A stretch of 64,000 bases of DNA from Niabella aurantiaca DSM 17617 (GTDB lineage: Bacteria > Bacteroidota > Bacteroidia > Chitinophagales > Chitinophagaceae), in contig NZ_KB893626.1 in the NCBI RefSeq assembly GCF_000374125.1, positions 1 to 64,000 of the forward strand, in the 5' to 3' direction. Of this stretch, positions 35,434-53,273 are shown in pieces. The notes under the pieces are model-generated. The model saw only the letters and a list, made by a program, of their open reading frames with translations, made no database searches and had not been told where the DNA came from. Made by a program: the position numbers and the translations under genes. The stretch's first letter is position 1; each line of letters opens with the position of its first letter.

Positions 35434-35633
35434 TTCTTTTAACTTTTTTAATGAAAGAATAAGCTAAAAGCCCTTGCAGGTTTCGCAATGCTACTGCGGT
35501 AAAAATAAAAAGGCAGACAGATGTGTGAGATCCGGCCGGATGTGAGGAAGCCTTTCCGGATAGTGAAGGAGAAGAATAAAGACATCGTGCAAACCATTGC
35601 TTCAAACCGCGAAAGCATTGTTTCATACAGAAA

Positions 35634-35798
35634 AGGCAGGTCTCCTGGCTTACAGCAGCTTTTACCATCCTTCCCATGGCGCCGGGGCACCACAGTGGAC
35701 ATACAGGGGTAAAACTTTCAATACTGTTTACAGTTGCGCGACAGCTCGTGACTTACACACGATTCCCTATTATCCTTAATTTTCATTAAGGACCTCTT
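35634..35798 (-). ncRNA. cobalamin riboswitch controlling metE
   Basis: On the minus strand in order: GAGGTCC near 35797, AGGGAATCGTGTGTAAGTCA, the core GCTGTCGCGCAACTGTAAAC, a variable arm, and the B12 box AAGCCAGGAGACCTGCC at about 35650-35634. These are the invariant elements of the AdoCbl riboswitch. It lies 200 bp upstream of metE, ending in a leader that could form an alternative structure. Confidence 0.95.
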
Positions 35799-36018
35799 CC
35801 GGTTGATGAAAAATGAAAGAACTTATCAGTCCTGCAAATTTAGCGGAAAGAATACAATTTCCGGGGAATGGGTGCCGGACATTTTTTCGCCATAGTGACC
35901 TGCTATGCCTGCAAAATTTGCCTTGTTTCGCTCCAAAATAGGTTCATAATAAATTCCACCGATGAAATTTAAACAGGCTCTAAAAGGACCGGGGCTTTTT
36001 TTATCCGTGATCCTGCAA

Positions 36019-44924: not shown

Positions 44925-45157
44925 ATATAAATAATCCGCCTGTGGCCGGATGAGGTCCCGGGTATATAGATTGCTGCAGATGCACCGGAGAACGCGCTCT
45001 TCCCGGTCTGCGTATCGCTGGCCGTTGCGTCATTGCCTCTTTGCTTCGCTGCGTGAACCCGGACATTGTGCCCTTCCTGCAGCGAATGCAATCGGTTGTG
45101 CAGCCGAATCACCGGGTTTCACAATATATTCGCATACACACAAAAAAATTACGCTTT

Positions 45158-46435
45158 ATGAACTGTTCCGCAAAAGGATTGCTTGCTGTGTTGCTGCTTT
45201 TTTCATCTGTTATCAATGCCCAGTCCATAACAGTGCCCACGGGTGGCAATGCATGGGCGTTGGAAAGAACCGGGGAGGGCATACGGGTCCGCAACAATGG
45301 AATTACCAACTGGACAAAGATCAATGAGGGCTTTACCGCTTATATTCGGGTAACACAGCCGGGAACCCTTAAAGTATGGCTGGAAACCGGTACTGTTACC
45401 GGTAACCCGGAAATTGCTGTTTCTATATTCAAACAAACAAAAAATGCGGTATTAAAAGGAGCGGGGCCTTCTTTTTATATTGGAGAATGGAGCATAAAGG
45501 ACAGCGGCTATGTGCCGGTGGTGGTGAAGGGAATCAAAAAAGAGGGTTGTTGCTTTCCGGATGTAGTAGCGTTAAAGCTGGAAGGCACTGCGCTTACCGA
45601 TAAAGCCAGCTATACAAAGAACAATGAAGGCAATTTCTTTCATTGGGGAAGAAGAGGACCTTCTGTACATATGGGGTACCAGTTGCCAAAAGATGTGGAT
45701 GCGGAATGGTTTTATAATGAGGTAACCGTGCCGGCGGGCAATGATGTGGTCGGCTCTTATTTTATGGCCAATGGTTTTGGCGAAGGTTATTTCGGTATGC
45801 AGGTGAACTCTGCAACCGAGCGCCGTATCCTGTTTTCCGTCTGGAGCCCTTATCAAACCGATGATCCGAAACAGATCCCCGAAGATCATAAGATCAAAAT
45901 GCTGAAAAAGGGTGAAGACGTTTATACCGGTGAGTTTGGAAATGAAGGATCGGGTGGCCAAAGCATCCTGCGGTATCCCTGGAAGGCGGGCACTACCAAT
46001 AAATTCCTGCTGCATGTGGTTCCGGATGGAGATAGCCATACCGTTTATACAGCCTATTTTTATGATGGAGCAAAAAATACCTGGCTGCTGGTGGCCAGTT
46101 TCCGGCGTCCGAAATTGTCTACGTATTTGAAACGGCCACATTCCTTCCTCGAGAACTTCAGTCCCAACCAGGGGGATATTGAGCGCAAAGTGTTTTTCGG
46201 AAACCAATGGGTACGGGACACCAGAGGCAACTGGCATGAGCTTACCAAAGCGCGCTTTACTGCTGATAATACGGCGCGCGTGGGATACCGGAAAGATTAT
46301 GCAGGCGGTGTAAAGGGGCAACAGTTCTACCTGAGGAATTGCGGGTTCTTTAATGATTTTGTTCCTTATGATACCATGGTAGAGCGCCAGCCCACCGGCA
46401 AAACGCCACAGGTGGATCTCGATGCGCTGCCATAG
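45158..46435 (+). CDS. secreted DUF3472 protein (with DUF5077)
   Basis: 425 residues from ATG 45158, with a signal peptide (LLAVLLLFSSVINAQ). N-terminal DUF5077 (WTKINEGFTAYIRVTQPGTL) and a C-terminal DUF3472 jelly-roll-like domain (HWGRRGPSVHMGYQLP, FSVWSPYQTDDP, RYPWKAGTTNKFLL). Families of this kind occur among polysaccharide-utilisation genes; carbohydrate binding is inferred. The longer frame from 45041 would place 39 residues before the signal peptide. Confidence 0.85.
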   Translation: MNCSAKGLLAVLLLFSSVINAQSITVPTGGNAWALERTGEGIRVRNNGITNWTKINEGFTAYIRVTQPGTLKVWLETGTVTGNPEIAVSIFKQTKNAVLKGAGPSFYIGEWSIKDSGYVPVVVKGIKKEGCCFPDVVALKLEGTALTDKASYTKNNEGNFFHWGRRGPSVHMGYQLPKDVDAEWFYNEVTVPAGNDVVGSYFMANGFGEGYFGMQVNSATERRILFSVWSPYQTDDPKQIPEDHKIKMLKKGEDVYTGEFGNEGSGGQSILRYPWKAGTTNKFLLHVVPDGDSHTVYTAYFYDGAKNTWLLVASFRRPKLSTYLKRPHSFLENFSPNQGDIERKVFFGNQWVRDTRGNWHELTKARFTADNTARVGYRKDYAGGVKGQQFYLRNCGFFNDFVPYDTMVERQPTGKTPQVDLDALP

Positions 46436-46456: not shown

Positions 46457-46488
46457 GCCATCTCTTTTTTTTAAGGGATGGCTTTTTT
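46457..46488 (+). terminator. terminator of the DUF3472 gene
   Basis: GCCATC ... GATGGC with a T-rich loop followed by TTTTTT. Confidence 0.75.
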
Positions 46489-46618: not shown

Positions 46619-46649
46619 TTTGTTGATAATATTTTAGCAATTACCTTTG
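46619..46649 (+). promoter_or_regulatory. promoter of the SAM riboswitch-susCD transcript
   Basis: TTTG (46619-46622), 19-nt spacer, TACCTTTG (46642-46649): exact match to the Bacteroidota consensus. Transcription should begin near 46655, about 12 bases before the riboswitch. Confidence 0.88.
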
Positions 46650-46666
46650 CTTTGTCTTCACAGACA

Positions 46667-46763
46667 ACTTATCAAGAAAGACTGAGGGAAATGGCCCGGG
46701 GAAGTCTTAGCAACCACCATCATAGGAGCGGTGCTACATCCATCCAAAAAAGGAAAGATAAGT
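46667..46763 (+). ncRNA. SAM-I (S-box) riboswitch
   Basis: P1 helix ACTTATC (46667-46673) with GATAAGT (46757-46763), then AAGAAAGACTGAGGGAAATG, GGCCCGGGGAAGTCTTAGCA, ACC, and GGTGCTACATCC: the invariant S-box elements in the right order. It should bind S-adenosylmethionine and lower expression of the downstream genes when SAM is abundant. No classical terminator follows, so the output may be translational or act on the leader peptide. Confidence 0.92.
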
Positions 46764-46841
46764 GGTCGTCAATGTACCCGCATTGTCTTCTATCCGCGAT
46801 TTTCTTTCCATAACCGATTTTTTAAACGGCAATTTTTGAAC

Positions 46842-46967
46842 ATGAACACAAAGATGCAATCATTGGGATATGGCTACGCGTCTTCCAATGGCCGACAGGC
46901 GAGCTGTCGTAACGTACAACTACTGCAACCCACCACCATGATGATGGAGTGCTGTTGCTGCTGCTGA
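46842..46967 (+). CDS. Met/Cys-rich leader peptide
   Basis: 41 codons, ATG at 46842 (alternative ATG 46854), ending TTMMMECCCCC and TGA. Three consecutive Met codons, Glu, then five Cys codons before the stop is far outside normal composition. It lies between a SAM riboswitch and susC, 108 bp before the susC ATG. The body contains NGRQASCRNVQLLQP, reminiscent in style of cysteine-type leader peptides. I infer a ribosome-mediated sensor of Met and Cys supply. A metal- or thiol-binding peptide is the alternative. Confidence 0.75.
   Translation: MNTKMQSLGYGYASSNGRQASCRNVQLLQPTTMMMECCCCC
46925..46958 (+). promoter_or_regulatory. hairpin enclosing the Met/Cys codons
   Basis: Pairs GCAAC/GTTGC, CAC/GTG and CCAT/ATGG around a GATG loop, 12 bp with small internal mismatches. 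The Met codons are in loop and stem, the first Cys codons in the 3' arm, so ribosome position would decide whether it forms. A T-rich run follows only after 16 more bases, so it is not a standard terminator. Confidence 0.55.
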
Positions 46968-47075
46968 TCTTACCTGTTTTTTAATTCGTTTTTATTTAAT
47001 TGACGGCCTGAAGCCGAACGGGACCCGTATGTTTCAGCCGCAACCATCCGAATACTTTAAAACATATACATAACG

Positions 47076-50000
47076 ATGAATCAATTTCTAAGACAAATGA
47101 TTTTTGCAGCGGTCTTTCTTTTACCTGTATGGGGTGCTGCACAATCTGCAACGATCACGGGCACTGTAGAGGAACTTCAGTCCGGCACTCCCCTGGCCGG
47201 TGTAACCATAGAAGTATCCGGAACCAACCGGCGTACGCTTACTAACGGGCAGGGAAACTTTTCGATAGCGGCCGGACCGCATGCCATCCTGCTTTTTTCT
47301 TATGTGGGATATGCCAATCATCAGGTGAATACCGATACCATACGGGGAAACCTGAGGGTACAGCTGCAAAGTTCCAATACCGCGCTCGACGAAGTAGTGG
47401 TAACGGCATTGGGTGTAACCAAGGCCAAAAAATCCCTGGGGTATGCCACGCAGGAGTTAAAGGCAAAGGATATTTCCGAAGCGAAGGAAACCAATATCGT
47501 AAATGCGCTGGCAGGAAAGATCGCCGGGGTACGTATCACCAATACCCAGGGAGATATGGGGTCATCCCGCATCGTGATCCGCGGTGAAACTTCCATTGCC
47601 GGGAACAATCAGCCGCTTTTTGTAGTGGATGGTATCCCGGTAGATAATTCACAGCTGGGCGCCGGAGGCTCGCGGGATTACCGCAATGCGATCGCGGATC
47701 TGAACCCGGAAGACATTGAGACCATCAGTGTGCTGAAAGGACCGAATGCCGCGGCGCTTTATGGTTCGCGTGCAGCACAGGGCGTGGTATTGATCAAAAC
47801 AAAAACCGGCCGGGGCAAAAAAGGGCTGGGAATCACCTTAAATTCCAATGTGAACATTGCCAGCCTGCTGATCCTTCCGGAGTATCAGAATGTTTTCGGA
47901 CAGGGCTCCGAAGGAAAGTTCAGCTATGTGGATGGCAAGGGCAGCGGTGATAACGATGGCGTGGATGAGAGCTGGGGCCCAAAAATGGATGGCCGGCTGA
48001 TCCCGCAGTTCTATTCCAACGGGGAGCCGGTGCCTTTTGTACCGCATCCCAACAATGTGCGGGATTATTTCCGGACCGGCATTACTTACAGCAATGGCAT
48101 CGCATTGGCCAATGCCGGCGATAATTATGATTACCGTATTTCTTACAACAATGAAAAGCAGCTGGGTGTGGTACCCAATAGTGAAGCGAAGAAAGACAAC
48201 CTGTCTTTTAATGCCAACTATAATGTAACGTCCAAATTAAAAGTGGGCGTAAGCGCAAATTATATTCTGAATAATGCGCCCAATCTTCCGGGTGCCGGCG
48301 GTAAACGGGCTACCAGTACCATGCTCCAGTTTACCTGGTTTGGCCGGCAGGTAGATATCGGCCAGCTGAAGAATTATAAGGACGCCGATGGCAACGGCAT
48401 TAACTGGAACAATAGTTATTACAGCAACCCGTACTGGATCGCCTATGAAAATACGGTAAGCCAGCGGCGGAACCGGATCATCGGGAATGTGAATATCAAC
48501 TATACCATTCTCGACGGGCTCAGTGCCAACTTCCGTACCGGTACTGACTATTATAACGACCGTCGTAAGCTCCGGGTGGCGTATGGTACCAATGGCACGC
48601 CTTTTGGCTCTTACGAAGAAGATGCATATGGTGTAAATGAAAATAATACAGAAGCCACACTCCGGTATAATAAAAATATCAATGGCAACTTTAGCCTGGA
48701 TGCCCTGGGTGGATGGAACGCGCGCACAAAAATTTATGAGGAAAATATCCAACAGGCGCCCCGCCTGGCAGTGCCGGATGTATATACCCTGGCCAATTCA
48801 AGAGATCCTCTGGTGTCTTCCAGTTTTTATTCCAAATCGAAGATCTATAGTGCCTTTGCATCCGCGCAGGTGGGATATAAGAACATTGCCTTTGTGAACT
48901 TAACGGCCCGTAACGACTGGTCATCTTCGTTGCCGGAGCAGAACCTTTCCTATTTTTATCCGTCGGTAAATGCCAGCCTGATCCTGTCGGATGCGTTGAA
49001 CATAAGAAGCAATACGCTGAATTTTCTGAAACTGAGAGGCGGGTGGTCAAAAGTGGGGAGCTCCGCGGATCCTTACCAGCTGATCAATATCTTTAATTTT
49101 AACGCGCCTTTCCTCGGCAACCCGCAGCTGATCACTTCAACAGTTGATCTGAATCCCGAGCTCAGATCGGAAACGACCAACTCTGCAGAGGCCGGGCTGG
49201 AAGCGGCGCTCTTTAACAACCGGGTACGGCTGGACCTGAGTGTGTACAATACCAATAGCATTGACCAGATCTTAAAGGTAGATGTAACTGCCGCAACCGG
49301 CTATAATCAAAAACTGATGAATGCGGGTAAGATCAACAATAAAGGCATTGAAGTACAGCTGGGGCTGATCCCTGTAAAGAACAACGACCTTCAATGGAAC
49401 GTAGATCTGAATTATGCGGCCAACCGGAGCCGGGTACTGATACTGGATTACGAACAGCGGCTGCAGAATTATGTACTGGGCTCCTACCGTAGCGTACAGG
49501 TGCTTGCTTCTGTAGGAAAACCCTACGGTACTCTGTTTGGGAATGCATACCTGCGGGATGCACAGGGCAATATCGTGGTAAACAGCAGCGGCATCCCCTT
49601 ATCAGACCCCAATAAGAAGGTGCTGGGTAAGTTTACTCCGGACTGGGTAGGCGGTATCAGCAACAGCCTTACATATAAAAATTTCAGTGTTTCCTTCCTG
49701 GTGGATGCCAGCATTGGCGGATCCCTGTTCGCCGGCACCAACTCCACCGGCAGCTACACCGGTGTGCTGGCGCTTACGCTACCGGGCCGGGATGCGGAAC
49801 TTGGGGGGCTTAGCTATTATTATCCTGATGATAAAAAGATCAATGGTACCAGGGCCGGTACCAGCGGGCCCAACGGGGAAACCGTGTATGACGATGGTAT
49901 GATCTTTAAGGGCGTGACCGCCGATGGTCAGCAAAACACTGCCATTATACCGGCCTCCCAGTATTACAAAGCAGCCCGGAGCATTGAGGAAGAGTATGTG

Positions 50001-50249
50001 TACGATGCTTCCTATGTAAAGCTGAGGGAAGTAAAGCTGGGGTATAATCTGCCCGCACAGTGGATCCGGAAGATCGGTTTTCAGGGAGCATCCTTTTCTG
50101 TAGTCGGCCGTAACCTCTGGATCATTCATAAAAATGTACCGAATATCGATCCCGAAGTGGCCTTTAATACCGGCAATGCACAGGGGCTGGAGGATTTGAC
50201 GCTTCCTACCGTACGGAACATCGGATTTAACCTGAACTTAAAATTTTAA
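47076..50249 (+). CDS. susC: SusC/RagA family TonB-dependent outer-membrane transporter
   Basis: 1057 residues. Signal peptide (1-22), carboxypeptidase-regulatory-like domain (about 25-100), TonB-box-like DEVVVTALG (105-113), plug domain with VRITNTQGDMGSSRIVIRGE and VVDGIPVDN, and a 22-stranded barrel ending in NIGFNLNLKF. It imports a ligand captured by the SusD lipoprotein with TonB energy. Being downstream of a SAM riboswitch and a Met/Cys leader, it probably takes up a sulfur-containing compound or peptide, not a glycan; no glycoside hydrolase is linked. Confidence 0.95.
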   Translation: MNQFLRQMIFAAVFLLPVWGAAQSATITGTVEELQSGTPLAGVTIEVSGTNRRTLTNGQGNFSIAAGPHAILLFSYVGYANHQVNTDTIRGNLRVQLQSSNTALDEVVVTALGVTKAKKSLGYATQELKAKDISEAKETNIVNALAGKIAGVRITNTQGDMGSSRIVIRGETSIAGNNQPLFVVDGIPVDNSQLGAGGSRDYRNAIADLNPEDIETISVLKGPNAAALYGSRAAQGVVLIKTKTGRGKKGLGITLNSNVNIASLLILPEYQNVFGQGSEGKFSYVDGKGSGDNDGVDESWGPKMDGRLIPQFYSNGEPVPFVPHPNNVRDYFRTGITYSNGIALANAGDNYDYRISYNNEKQLGVVPNSEAKKDNLSFNANYNVTSKLKVGVSANYILNNAPNLPGAGGKRATSTMLQFTWFGRQVDIGQLKNYKDADGNGINWNNSYYSNPYWIAYENTVSQRRNRIIGNVNINYTILDGLSANFRTGTDYYNDRRKLRVAYGTNGTPFGSYEEDAYGVNENNTEATLRYNKNINGNFSLDALGGWNARTKIYEENIQQAPRLAVPDVYTLANSRDPLVSSSFYSKSKIYSAFASAQVGYKNIAFVNLTARNDWSSSLPEQNLSYFYPSVNASLILSDALNIRSNTLNFLKLRGGWSKVGSSADPYQLINIFNFNAPFLGNPQLITSTVDLNPELRSETTNSAEAGLEAALFNNRVRLDLSVYNTNSIDQILKVDVTAATGYNQKLMNAGKINNKGIEVQLGLIPVKNNDLQWNVDLNYAANRSRVLILDYEQRLQNYVLGSYRSVQVLASVGKPYGTLFGNAYLRDAQGNIVVNSSGIPLSDPNKKVLGKFTPDWVGGISNSLTYKNFSVSFLVDASIGGSLFAGTNSTGSYTGVLALTLPGRDAELGGLSYYYPDDKKINGTRAGTSGPNGETVYDDGMIFKGVTADGQQNTAIIPASQYYKAARSIEEEYVYDASYVKLREVKLGYNLPAQWIRKIGFQGASFSVVGRNLWIIHKNVPNIDPEVAFNTGNAQGLEDLTLPTVRNIGFNLNLKF

Positions 50250-50260
50250 AAACGGCAGTC

Positions 50261-51703
50261 ATGTATAAAAATATATTTTCACTCGTTGTTATAGCATTTA
50301 TTCTTTCGTTTACTGCCTGCAAAAAGAACCTGGCGGAGATCAACCGGAACCCCAATGCCGTGGAGGACCCACAGCCGGATTATTTGTTGACGGCGGCAGA
50401 AAAAACAGCTGCGGATAGTTACTGGGGCGCAGACAATAACTTCAATTCCAGTTTGCTGATCATCCAGCACTGGGCAAAGATCCAATATACAGAACCCGAT
50501 CGCTATATCTTCAGCAACAGCAGCTTTACCTCGCTCTGGAACACCGGCTATGCGCAGGTGATCACCAACCTGAATACGATCATCCAGTTCCCGGACGGGA
50601 AGGCCAACGCTAATTACAAAGCCGTAGCAACCATTTTGCGATCCTGGATATTTCAGTTGCTTACAGACGCTTACGGGGCAATACCCTATAGCGAGTCCGG
50701 AAAGATCAAGCAGACCCTTACACCCGTATATGATACGCAGAAGGATGTGTACTTTGGTTTGCTCGATGAGCTGAAATCGGCCACGGCCACACTGAACCCG
50801 GCTGCCGGCAGTATTTCCGGGGATGTCTTGTATGGCGGTAGTCTGGATAGCTGGAGAAAGTTTGCAGGAGCGCTCCGGCTGCGCATCGCCCTTCGTATTA
50901 CCGACCGCGAACCGGAAAAGGCCCGGGAAGTGATCAGCGAGGTAACGGCCAACCCTTCCCTGCTAATCGCCGGCAACGGGGAGGCCGCCCGGTTGATCTA
51001 CGATAAGCCGCCCTTACAAAACCCGATGGCCGCCTGGTTTTCTACAAGGGATGACTACCGGGTGGGCAAAACCATCATCGATAAATTATATGCGCTGAAT
51101 GATCCCCGTCTGGCGGCATTTGCTGATAAGCCCACGGACCCTTCTGTTACCAGTTATGTAGGGGTACCCAGCGGGCTCACCAATAGTGACGCCAACAACC
51201 TGGGGTTTTCAAAAACGTCAAAACCCGGTCTTGTGTTTTTCCGTTCGGATGCCAATCCTGCCGTGATCCTGAGTTATCCGGAGGTATTGTTTAACCTGGC
51301 TGAAGCTGCGGCGCGGGGGCTGTACAATGGCAATGCAGCAGATCTGTACAAACAGGCTATAACGGCCTCCCTGCAGCAATACCAGATCGCAGATAACACG
51401 GTGATCAATACGTATCTCAATCAGCCGGCGGTAACCTACAACCCTGCAAACTATAAGAAGTCCATTGGCGAGCAAAAATGGATCGCATTGTATGGTCAGG
51501 GACTGGAGGCGTTTGCCGAATGGCGCCGGCTGGATTATCCCCAACTGATGCCGGGGGCATCCGGGGTGCTGGATGGAAAGATACCGGTGCGGTTTATCTA
51601 TCCGGGTACGGAGCAATCACTCAATGGGGTCAATTATAAGGCAGCCGTGGCCGCCCAGGGTACGGATAACCTGTTGACAAAGCTATGGTTTGATGTAAAT
51701 TGA
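50261..51703 (+). CDS. susD: SusD/RagB family lipoprotein
   Basis: 480 residues, lipoprotein signal ending SFTAC (Cys20). Starts 11 bp after susC. The sequence matches the SusD-like_2 branch (NRNPNAVEDPQPDYLLTAAE, WNTGYAQVITNLNTII, FQLLTDAYGAIPYSES, ILSYPEVLFNLAEAAARG, WIALYGQGLEAFAEWRRLDY). It forms the lid on the SusC barrel at the cell surface and binds the substrate. Confidence 0.95.
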   Translation: MYKNIFSLVVIAFILSFTACKKNLAEINRNPNAVEDPQPDYLLTAAEKTAADSYWGADNNFNSSLLIIQHWAKIQYTEPDRYIFSNSSFTSLWNTGYAQVITNLNTIIQFPDGKANANYKAVATILRSWIFQLLTDAYGAIPYSESGKIKQTLTPVYDTQKDVYFGLLDELKSATATLNPAAGSISGDVLYGGSLDSWRKFAGALRLRIALRITDREPEKAREVISEVTANPSLLIAGNGEAARLIYDKPPLQNPMAAWFSTRDDYRVGKTIIDKLYALNDPRLAAFADKPTDPSVTSYVGVPSGLTNSDANNLGFSKTSKPGLVFFRSDANPAVILSYPEVLFNLAEAAARGLYNGNAADLYKQAITASLQQYQIADNTVINTYLNQPAVTYNPANYKKSIGEQKWIALYGQGLEAFAEWRRLDYPQLMPGASGVLDGKIPVRFIYPGTEQSLNGVNYKAAVAAQGTDNLLTKLWFDVN

Positions 51704-52028: not shown

Positions 52029-53273
52029 ATGCGGAAAACATATTTATACCTTCTTTTTTCGTTCCTGGTGCTGGCCCCGGTGGCCGGCCGTGCACAGGGC
52101 ATAAAGCCCGGTATCTGGCAGGGCGTGTTACAGCGGCCGGACGGGCAGCACATCATTTTTAATTTCGAATCGGCCACGCTGAAGGGCCGGCCGGTGTTGT
52201 ACGTCATCAACGCGGGCGAGCGTTTGCTGGTAGATGCCATCCGGCAGAAAGGAGATTCCGTCTGGATACAGATGCCCTTTTTTGCCTCCGGATTTGCATT
52301 GCGGGTTGAAAAAAATGGAAACCTCAAAGGGGTATATATAAAAAATTATGGTACACGTAAGGAGGAAATTCCGTTCTATGCACTGCAGGGTGTGGCCGAG
52401 CGGTACCCGCTCACCAAACCGGCGGCGGTGGATATCAGCGGTCGGTGGGCCGTGTCCTTTAGCTCCGGCAATGGTAAGACGCTGCAGGCCATTGGTGAGT
52501 TTGCGCAGGAAGCCGGCGGCCGGATCACAGGTACCTTTCTGACGCCTTCGGGTGATTACCGCTACCTGGAAGGATCGGTGAGCGGAGATTCGCTGCACCT
52601 TTCCGGTTTTGACGGGGGACATGCCTTTGTATTTACAGCGCTGCTGAATGATAAGGACAGCATTCGCGATGCAGCAGTATATTCGGGGTTAAGGGCGCCG
52701 CAAAGCTGGACTGCCCGGAGGAATGATACGGCGGCGCTTCCGGATGAAAATACTTATACCAAATTAAGGGAGGGCGAGAGCCGGCTGAACTTCCGGTTCC
52801 GGTCTACCTCAGGGGAGTGGATCTCCATTAATGATGCCCGGTATAAAAATAAAGTGATCATCGTACAGATCCTGGGCTCCTGGTGTCCCAATTGTATGGA
52901 TGAAACCGCCTTCCTGAGCGAATATTACACCCGCAACAAAGCACGGGGTGTGGAGATCATCGGGCTGGCCTATGAGCGTACCGGGGATTTTGAGGCTTCC
53001 CGCAAAGCGCTGATCCCTTTTCAAAAACGGTACAATGTAAAATATCCTTTCCTGGTAACGGGGGTTTCTGTTTCGGACGAGCAACGGACGGAGAAAACAC
53101 TGCCCCAGCTGGAAAGCATCAGGGCCTTTCCAACATCCATTATAATTGATAAAAAAGGCAATGTCCGGAAGATACACTCCGGTTTTAATGGCCCCGGCAC
53201 GGGGAAGCATTACGAGGAATTTAAAAAAGAGTTTGAGTCTTTTATAGACGGGTTGCTGAAGGAACCCTCTTAG
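52029..53273 (+). CDS. TlpA-type thiol-disulfide oxidoreductase
   Basis: 414 residues with a signal peptide (LLFSFLVLAPVAGRAQ). N-terminal beta-rich domain to about 235 and a C-terminal thioredoxin-fold domain with active site GSWCPNCMDE (Cys286, Cys289) and cis-Pro loop RAFPTSIIIDKKGN. It would reduce disulfides in the periplasm. It follows susCD by 325 bp on the same strand; a periplasmic reductant fits import of an oxidised sulfur compound such as cystine or disulfide peptides, but this is inference. Confidence 0.87.
   Translation: MRKTYLYLLFSFLVLAPVAGRAQGIKPGIWQGVLQRPDGQHIIFNFESATLKGRPVLYVINAGERLLVDAIRQKGDSVWIQMPFFASGFALRVEKNGNLKGVYIKNYGTRKEEIPFYALQGVAERYPLTKPAAVDISGRWAVSFSSGNGKTLQAIGEFAQEAGGRITGTFLTPSGDYRYLEGSVSGDSLHLSGFDGGHAFVFTALLNDKDSIRDAAVYSGLRAPQSWTARRNDTAALPDENTYTKLREGESRLNFRFRSTSGEWISINDARYKNKVIIVQILGSWCPNCMDETAFLSEYYTRNKARGVEIIGLAYERTGDFEASRKALIPFQKRYNVKYPFLVTGVSVSDEQRTEKTLPQLESIRAFPTSIIIDKKGNVRKIHSGFNGPGTGKHYEEFKKEFESFIDGLLKEPS

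Follow-up and report, generated by a model that had tools for sequence, protein, structure and literature searches.

Poly-Cys leader peptides have reportedly been the subject of experimental work by Canestrari et al. in 2020, and the described systems closest to the locus discussed here are compared with it below. In Mycobacterium, Propionibacterium acnes and Bifidobacterium longum, poly-Cys leaders have been described (PMC1262725) that resemble ours in consisting of a short open reading frame (ORF) with a Cys run near its stop, in standing before cys genes and, for Mycobacterium, in having no conserved terminator hairpin; they differ in belonging to another phylum, and the accessible text mentions no SAM riboswitch in the same leader. 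The Rhodobacterales element uORFC-8-2, before cysS (PMC8632094), is similar in that the Cys codons of an upstream ORF lie inside an RNA structure for which ribosome-mediated attenuation was proposed. It differs in having two Cys codons, a cysteinyl-tRNA synthetase gene behind it and a terminator in its consensus model, and its account, as far as accessible, mentions no tandem riboswitch. In Streptomyces lividans, metL before metNIQ (PMC8079986) has an end that mixes Met and Cys codons (RCMCRRMCAF, then the stop), as does ours; it stands before a methionine import system and, as at our locus, a typical Rho-independent terminator is absent, the difference being that the accessible part of the paper mentions no SAM riboswitch in front. 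The tandem attenuators of Salmonella mgtCBR (PMC3641672) offer the precedent of a single leader RNA that holds two sensors for different signals, an amino-acid codon run being one of the sensors, although there, according to the accessible text, both sensors are ORFs and the signals are ATP and proline. The S-box (SAM-I) riboswitch family (RF00162) counts our first sensor among its members by score; alone, it differs in sensing SAM only, and it occurs without a Cys leader at metB/C-type genes of the same bacterial family.

Leader-peptide attenuation has been suspected in Bacteroidota, in papers whose accessible portions do not name Cys (PMC9723704, PMC7366714). What, then, of the two kinds of sensor in series? 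We found no description of a SAM riboswitch paired with a Cys leader in the openly licensed literature, and the accessible part of PMC1273637 describes no such series; an earlier, sequence-only reading of this DNA likewise knew of no described system with this layout. What appears to be new is the serial combination of known parts, together with a hairpin where the Cys run ends; the poly-Cys leader and the SAM riboswitch were each known before, by themselves.

The locus lies within the first 64,000 nucleotides of contig NZ_KB893626.1 of Niabella aurantiaca DSM 17617 (Bacteroidota; Chitinophagaceae), and we call this whole stretch the window. On its forward strand, positions 46842-46967 encode the 41-residue peptide MNTKMQSLGYGYASSNGRQASCRNVQLLQPTTMMMECCCCC, which begins MNTKMQ, ends MMMECCCCC and is closed by TGA; translation, the RF00162 score and the coordinates all agree with the earlier description of this ORF as standing between a SAM riboswitch and susC. 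The aptamer (46666-46764) reaches 70.5 bits in cmscan (E 1.9e-14) against a gathering score of 44.4 bits and covers model positions 1-108 of 108. Just before it is a candidate promoter, TTTG-N19-TAccTTTG (46619-46649), part of which, TACCTTTG, is kept in the 8 aligned leaders of the genus. An upstream TTTG box is part of the Bacteroidota promoter. A TAnnTTTG consensus is named for promoters of this phylum in the accessible part of PMC9723704. Because the pattern has 4 matches in the window, with 2.75 expected, only the position of this one directly before the aptamer is telling. The leader is preceded by a DUF3472 gene (45041-46435) with a terminator-like hairpin and T6 tail directly behind it (46457-46482, forward strand), and the window also holds a Cobalamin riboswitch on the reverse strand (35618-35812, 111.4 bits).

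Directly 3' of the aptamer, folds of 60 nt from nine susC leaders place a hairpin followed by TTTCTTTCC (46765-46800); in the window it is weak and has a T-rich tail, and it may be the output element of the riboswitch, as distinct from a canonical terminator. The leader ATG follows 77 nt behind the aptamer. Near the end of the ORF come three Met codons (46938-46946), which the ortholog alignment does not keep as a run, and five Cys codons (46950-46964), which are its conserved core. Folding suggests a possible hairpin, GCAAC...GUUGC (46925-46958), with Cys codons forming its 3' arm, and a hairpin region (47004-47040) in the spacer of 108 nt between the leader stop and the ATG of susC. The genes behind are susC (47076-50249), for a SusC/RagA TonB-linked outer membrane protein (Pfam; NCBIfam TIGR04056, OMP_RagA_SusC, above cut-off), susD (50261-51703; SusD-like_2, Pfam PF12771) and, possibly in the same operon, a gene for a redoxin / AhpC-TSA domain protein (52029-53273; Pfam, with NCBIfam matches below cut-off only).

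How much can be made of five consecutive Cys codons? By itself such a run is poor evidence, because stretches of four TGY codons (TGYTGYTGYTGY) are not rare in this genome: 129 matches, against 29 for the reversed control pattern. For the same reason, the case for the ORF has to rest on conservation. Database families and simple motif searches are silent here, with no leader family for the ORF in Rfam, Pfam or NCBIfam and, among the 10 matches to ATGATGGAR(TGY)5 (at most 2 mismatches) in 294 genomes of the family, nine besides the window's, each of which falls within a long ORF or on the strand opposite one. The sequence-only reading had named lack of conservation among the things that would refute its proposal, and the ORF is conserved. 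Orthologous susCD genes occur in 8 of 17 genomes of the genus, the window's included (susD identity at least 82%; L075, L077 and L078 are the same loci as L031, L037 and L036 and are counted once), and all eight loci have a SAM aptamer before susC and a short ORF with 3-5 Cys codons at its end or two codons before its end. These ORFs finish, each at a stop, with MMMECCCCC, MMMACCCCC, MRLACCCC (twice), MKMACCCCRS, MGIGCCCC, RMQLCCC and RMQPCCC; in the last of these (L037), the ATG has become ATA and one base is lost, and a later in-frame ATG still leads into the three Cys codons and the stop.

The remainder of the ORF behaves quite differently from its end. In the body, across six close orthologs, 15, 12 and 16 columns vary at codon positions 1, 2 and 3, and the codon pairs with a single difference comprise 63 that are synonymous and 72 that are not, so that, judged by substitution pattern, the body is under no protein-like constraint. 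In the last six codons (one Glu, Ala or Gly codon plus the Cys run), 0, 1 and 3 columns vary, and the corresponding pairs are 17 synonymous and 7 not. That the Cys codons and the frame are kept while the rest drifts is as expected of a leader peptide, and two features of poly-Cys leader peptides are found here: a Cys run near the ORF end, with its codons kept and the remaining peptide variable.

Is the layout peculiar to a transporter operon, as was initially supposed? It is not, and the gene most commonly found behind a Cys leader is metY, for O-acetylhomoserine aminocarboxypropyltransferase/cysteine synthase. Our sample consisted of SAM riboswitches from 17 genomes of the genus and 146 of the family, in 182 stretches (175 from the window's family and 7 from other families; one riboswitch of the family set, G073, at a contig end, was left out). 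To pass the strict test, a leader needed a complete ORF, from start to stop codon, that lay between aptamer and gene and had at least 4 Cys among its last 12 residues; expectations were taken from dinucleotide shuffles. Gene classes were set by short sequence signatures of our own, and for the scanned examples NCBIfam supports them above cut-off (TIGR01326 for metY; phosphoadenylyl-sulfate reductase for cysH); eight stretches were left unclassed, four for unclear orientation (L163, L191, L236, L238) and four for want of a 130-codon gene (L118, L166, L195, L212). A strict Cys leader precedes metY in 29 of 47 cases (0.11 expected), susC in 8 of 11 (0.02), cysH in 2 of 2 (0.03), metX in 1 of 9 (0.01) and other genes in 2 of 14 (0.04), where one of the "other" genes, L035, is a metY whose start was missed by the gene rule; the 30 metY leaders of the hairpin and folding counts below are the 29 plus L035. 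The same test finds none before 74 metB/C-type genes (0.04 expected), 13 hom genes (0.01) or 4 metH genes, and no metB/C-type leader has more than 2 Cys.

Counts of this kind are inflated by related genomes, but even outside the genus 16 of 32 metY leaders pass. Fifteen of the 18 metY leaders that fail have 0 or 1 Cys at the end of their best ORF; the susC failures are L036 and L037, with their 3-Cys ORFs, and L252, a susC locus of another family that has no poly-Cys leader. A looser test (3 Cys in 9 residues, start codon unneeded) gives 34 of 46 for metY and 7 of 70 for metB/C-type genes. Outside the family, two sets of SAM-riboswitch stretches have a Cys leader in 0 of 28 and 0 of 20. The pattern looks functional, with a Cys leader at genes that fix, or possibly import, reduced sulfur and only the SAM riboswitch at other methionine-branch genes; as in known poly-Cys leaders, the gene behind belongs to cysteine metabolism at metY and cysH. 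The same division appears within the window's own genome, where susC and metY have a Cys leader (that of metY ends VMCCPVCCMP) and the metB/C-type gene has none. No Cys leader appears in the 3.5-kb stretch around this genome's cysH, ahead of which is a gene for what we take, by resemblance, to be a peroxiredoxin.

The association can also be approached by a search blind to riboswitches. A DNA pattern for CCxCCMP followed by a stop, scanned through GTDB species genomes, gave 83 stretches, and among the 80 matches listed we tested all 36 labelled Bacteroidota and 19 of the 44 others. In 23 of the 36 Bacteroidota matches listed, a SAM aptamer lies on the same strand, 141-569 nt upstream, and L314 has one about 1.5 kb upstream; in the 19 others tested, no SAM aptamer was found anywhere in the stretch. 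Twenty of the 23 aptamer-linked matches lie 85-105 nt before metY, 1 lies before susC and 2 are in stretches that end before a gene; in L262, L272, L273 and L309, the stretch ends too near the motif to judge. The susC case, L301 of Arcticibacter eurypsychrophilus, has a leader ending MCCCCCMP and then stop, 61 nt before the SusC start; the stretch breaks off within this susC gene, whose score stays under the full-length cut-off. In three Chitinophagaceae stretches (L257, L268 and L285), a DUF805b RNA motif occurs 4.9-5.7 kb upstream of the metY leader motif, on the same strand.

Could the ORF nonetheless be a coincidence, a TGC- and TGT-rich stretch in frame by accident? TGY runs are common enough in this genome to raise the thought, but an ORF kept in all eight orthologs and a strict leader at so many metY genes, against 0.11 expected, make it scarcely credible. 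Nor do we think much of the idea, which five adjacent Cys residues naturally invite, that the ORF is a functional Cys-rich small protein, perhaps for metal binding or thiol chemistry, located in the leader by accident: this is very improbable, given that no Pfam or NCBIfam family covers it, that its body lacks protein-like constraint, and that Cys stands at the ORF end before several kinds of gene and is tied at metY to an RNA hairpin. Methionine is a closer call. The sequence-only reading took the ORF to be a translation-based sensor of both Met and Cys behind a SAM sensor, and it suggested looking upstream of susCD in Chitinophagaceae for short ORFs ending in Met and Cys runs. The Cys half of both ideas fares well, through the kept codons and the recurrence at susC and other sulfur genes, and the Met half poorly, for MMM is kept in only 2 of 8 orthologs (the window and L072), the other six having MRLA, MRLA, MKMA, MGIG, RMQL and RMQP, with Arg, Leu, Lys, Gly or Ile codons in place of Met codons. 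A leader with three inputs (Met codons, Cys codons and a SAM riboswitch) can still point to the ten susC leaders with a Cys run, all with 1-4 Met in the last 15 residues, among them leaders from other genera that end MQLMCMHMRSMRCCCC (L204) and MCQLMPHSMQRCCCCCCMG (L240), and to the Met/Cys leader before the Met importer of Streptomyces lividans (metL, in the accessible part of PMC8079986). The Met of the metY CCMP ending, however, sits in a conserved RNA stem and is thereby explained without Met sensing. We regard Met reading at susC leaders as possible and a three-input leader that also senses methionine as rather unlikely.

That RNA stem deserves description. In metY leaders, the AUGCC after the Cys run pairs with a GGCAU a few bases on, and the loop is often GUAA, in which case it holds the stop codon. 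By direct search with a shuffled control, 28 of 30 leaders have a hairpin with 5 of 5 pairs immediately after the last Cys codon, against 0.39 expected. The stem has the same letters in 26 of the 28; L114 and L119 keep it with changed pairs, and the loops vary in length and sequence. Covariation is therefore thin. The change in L114 replaces Pro by Ala, suggesting that what is kept is the RNA and not the peptide. Segments of 45 nt from these leaders have a mean folding z of -1.58, below -1 in 20 of 30. RNAalifold found no pairs in the metY alignment, presumably because loop length differs between sequences, and the hairpin has no Rfam match at gathering scores.

Intrinsic terminators were sought with a strict scan; the stretch from aptamer to leader was taken to run up to the start of the ORF, except that for long ORFs it was closed 40 codons ahead of the stop. 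In that stretch, 27 of 29 metY leaders have a terminator-like hairpin (3.1 expected), as do 66 of 74 metB/C-type leaders (7.6 expected) downstream of the aptamer. Downstream of the Cys ORF, such a hairpin is present in 6 of the 29 metY leaders (1.4 expected), most clearly in L176, L110 and L114, and the scan finds none in the other 23. At susC, the same scan gives 0 of 10 between aptamer and ORF and 0 of 10 between ORF and gene, the window included; given the second of these results, we do not count the window's leader among classical transcription attenuators. Over 10 susC leaders, the final 54 nt of the ORF have a mean folding z of -1.27 (-0.73 in the window), and the hairpin at the Cys codons (46925-46958) and that of the spacer are only weakly predicted to form there; for 47004-47040, the consensus fold of 6 orthologs is two short stems with 0 pairs changed on both sides. 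The metY spacers are poor in G (mean about 0.09, versus 0.18 in the 100 nt immediately upstream of metB/C-type genes), a composition that might favour Rho; the spacer at susC is not G-poor. At one locus of Saprospiraceae (L305:1991-2340), with no SAM riboswitch in the 8 kb, tandem poly-Cys ORFs, MQNHINIQSSCCCNMMCCCCCMP and MKSYFTTNLSCTCCCCCCMCCYMPTSRLPLVHQDDGR, each have a strong terminator behind them, and the gene that follows is NirA/sulfite-reductase-like (NCBIfam matches below cut-off). The anatomy of this single locus suggests that poly-Cys leaders in Bacteroidota can act by transcription attenuation.

What might such a leader do? We propose, as the probable reading, that the susCD 5' leader is a control RNA with two checkpoints, SAM first and charged Cys-tRNA second, the latter through ribosome stalling. 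The SAM riboswitch would restrict the making, or the use, of the message to conditions of low SAM. A ribosome would then translate the leader ORF and, where cysteinyl-tRNA is scarce, stall on the Cys codons at its end, so that susC expression continues; where Cys is plentiful, it would reach the stop and susC expression would be damped. We imagine the second read-out as transcriptional, though at susC Rho-dependent termination or a translational step would be as likely. The sequences establish the order of the elements, the conservation of the Cys codons and their frame, the recurrence at metY, cysH and susC, the absence at metB/C-type, hom and metH genes, and the terminator between aptamer and ORF at metY. 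The machinery of the SAM step is visible at metY and we infer it at susC, as we do, at every gene, the stalling and its consequence.

The main rival to a transcriptional second step is translational: the region of the Cys codons would pair with the start region of the gene behind it, and ribosome stalling would free that start. It draws on the missing terminator at susC, on the minimum-energy folds of L031, L073 and L074, in which Cys codons pair with the start codon of susC or with bases immediately ahead of it, and on the translation attenuation reported for cysteine genes of M. smegmatis (accessible part of PMC13236596). The start region, however, shows weaker pairing with the Cys region than do other segments of the same stretch (means of -10.3 versus -14.5 kcal/mol at metY, n=29; -12.6 versus -16.8 at susC, n=10; -8.7 versus -11.9 at cysH, n=2), in a test that is weak because its control segments include coding DNA, and some relatives have terminators behind the ORF. 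We think this alternative somewhat unlikely. In its simple form, in which the Cys codons mask the downstream start region, we set it aside, pairing being not enriched relative to controls that include coding DNA.

If the two-checkpoint reading is true, this is a naturally occurring two-input logic element: a single RNA joins a riboswitch that binds a ligand to a translation-based sensor of an amino acid, and one bacterial family employs it at several sulfur genes. The reading predicts which genes should respond to SAM alone and which to SAM together with Cys. It also hints that the SusCD of the window imports a sulfur compound or peptide, and it offers Bacteroidota systems in which the coupling of translation to gene expression can be tested. 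One can go further, to a regulon of Chitinophagaceae in which genes for the import or fixation of reduced sulfur would carry the serial SAM-then-Cys leader and other methionine-branch genes SAM control alone; the second checkpoint would mostly work without an intrinsic terminator, at metY through the hairpin behind the last Cys codon (often with the stop in its loop), and at susC by reading Met too, as a three-input sulfur gate. We offer this full scheme as speculation, and doubt that it will prove right.

The SusC of L240, with its SAM riboswitch and Met-containing Cys leader, is quite different in sequence from the window's, and the layout may have originated, or been moved, repeatedly. In five genomes (L186, L193, L205, L207 and L217), a SAM riboswitch precedes a gene whose product is of the type MKEQYRQLYEKMLVEME. 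In L159, a SAM riboswitch is followed by a Cys leader ending AACPCLCCPQACCCCN and then by a further gene, whose product is, we assume from its resemblance, an outer-membrane porin.
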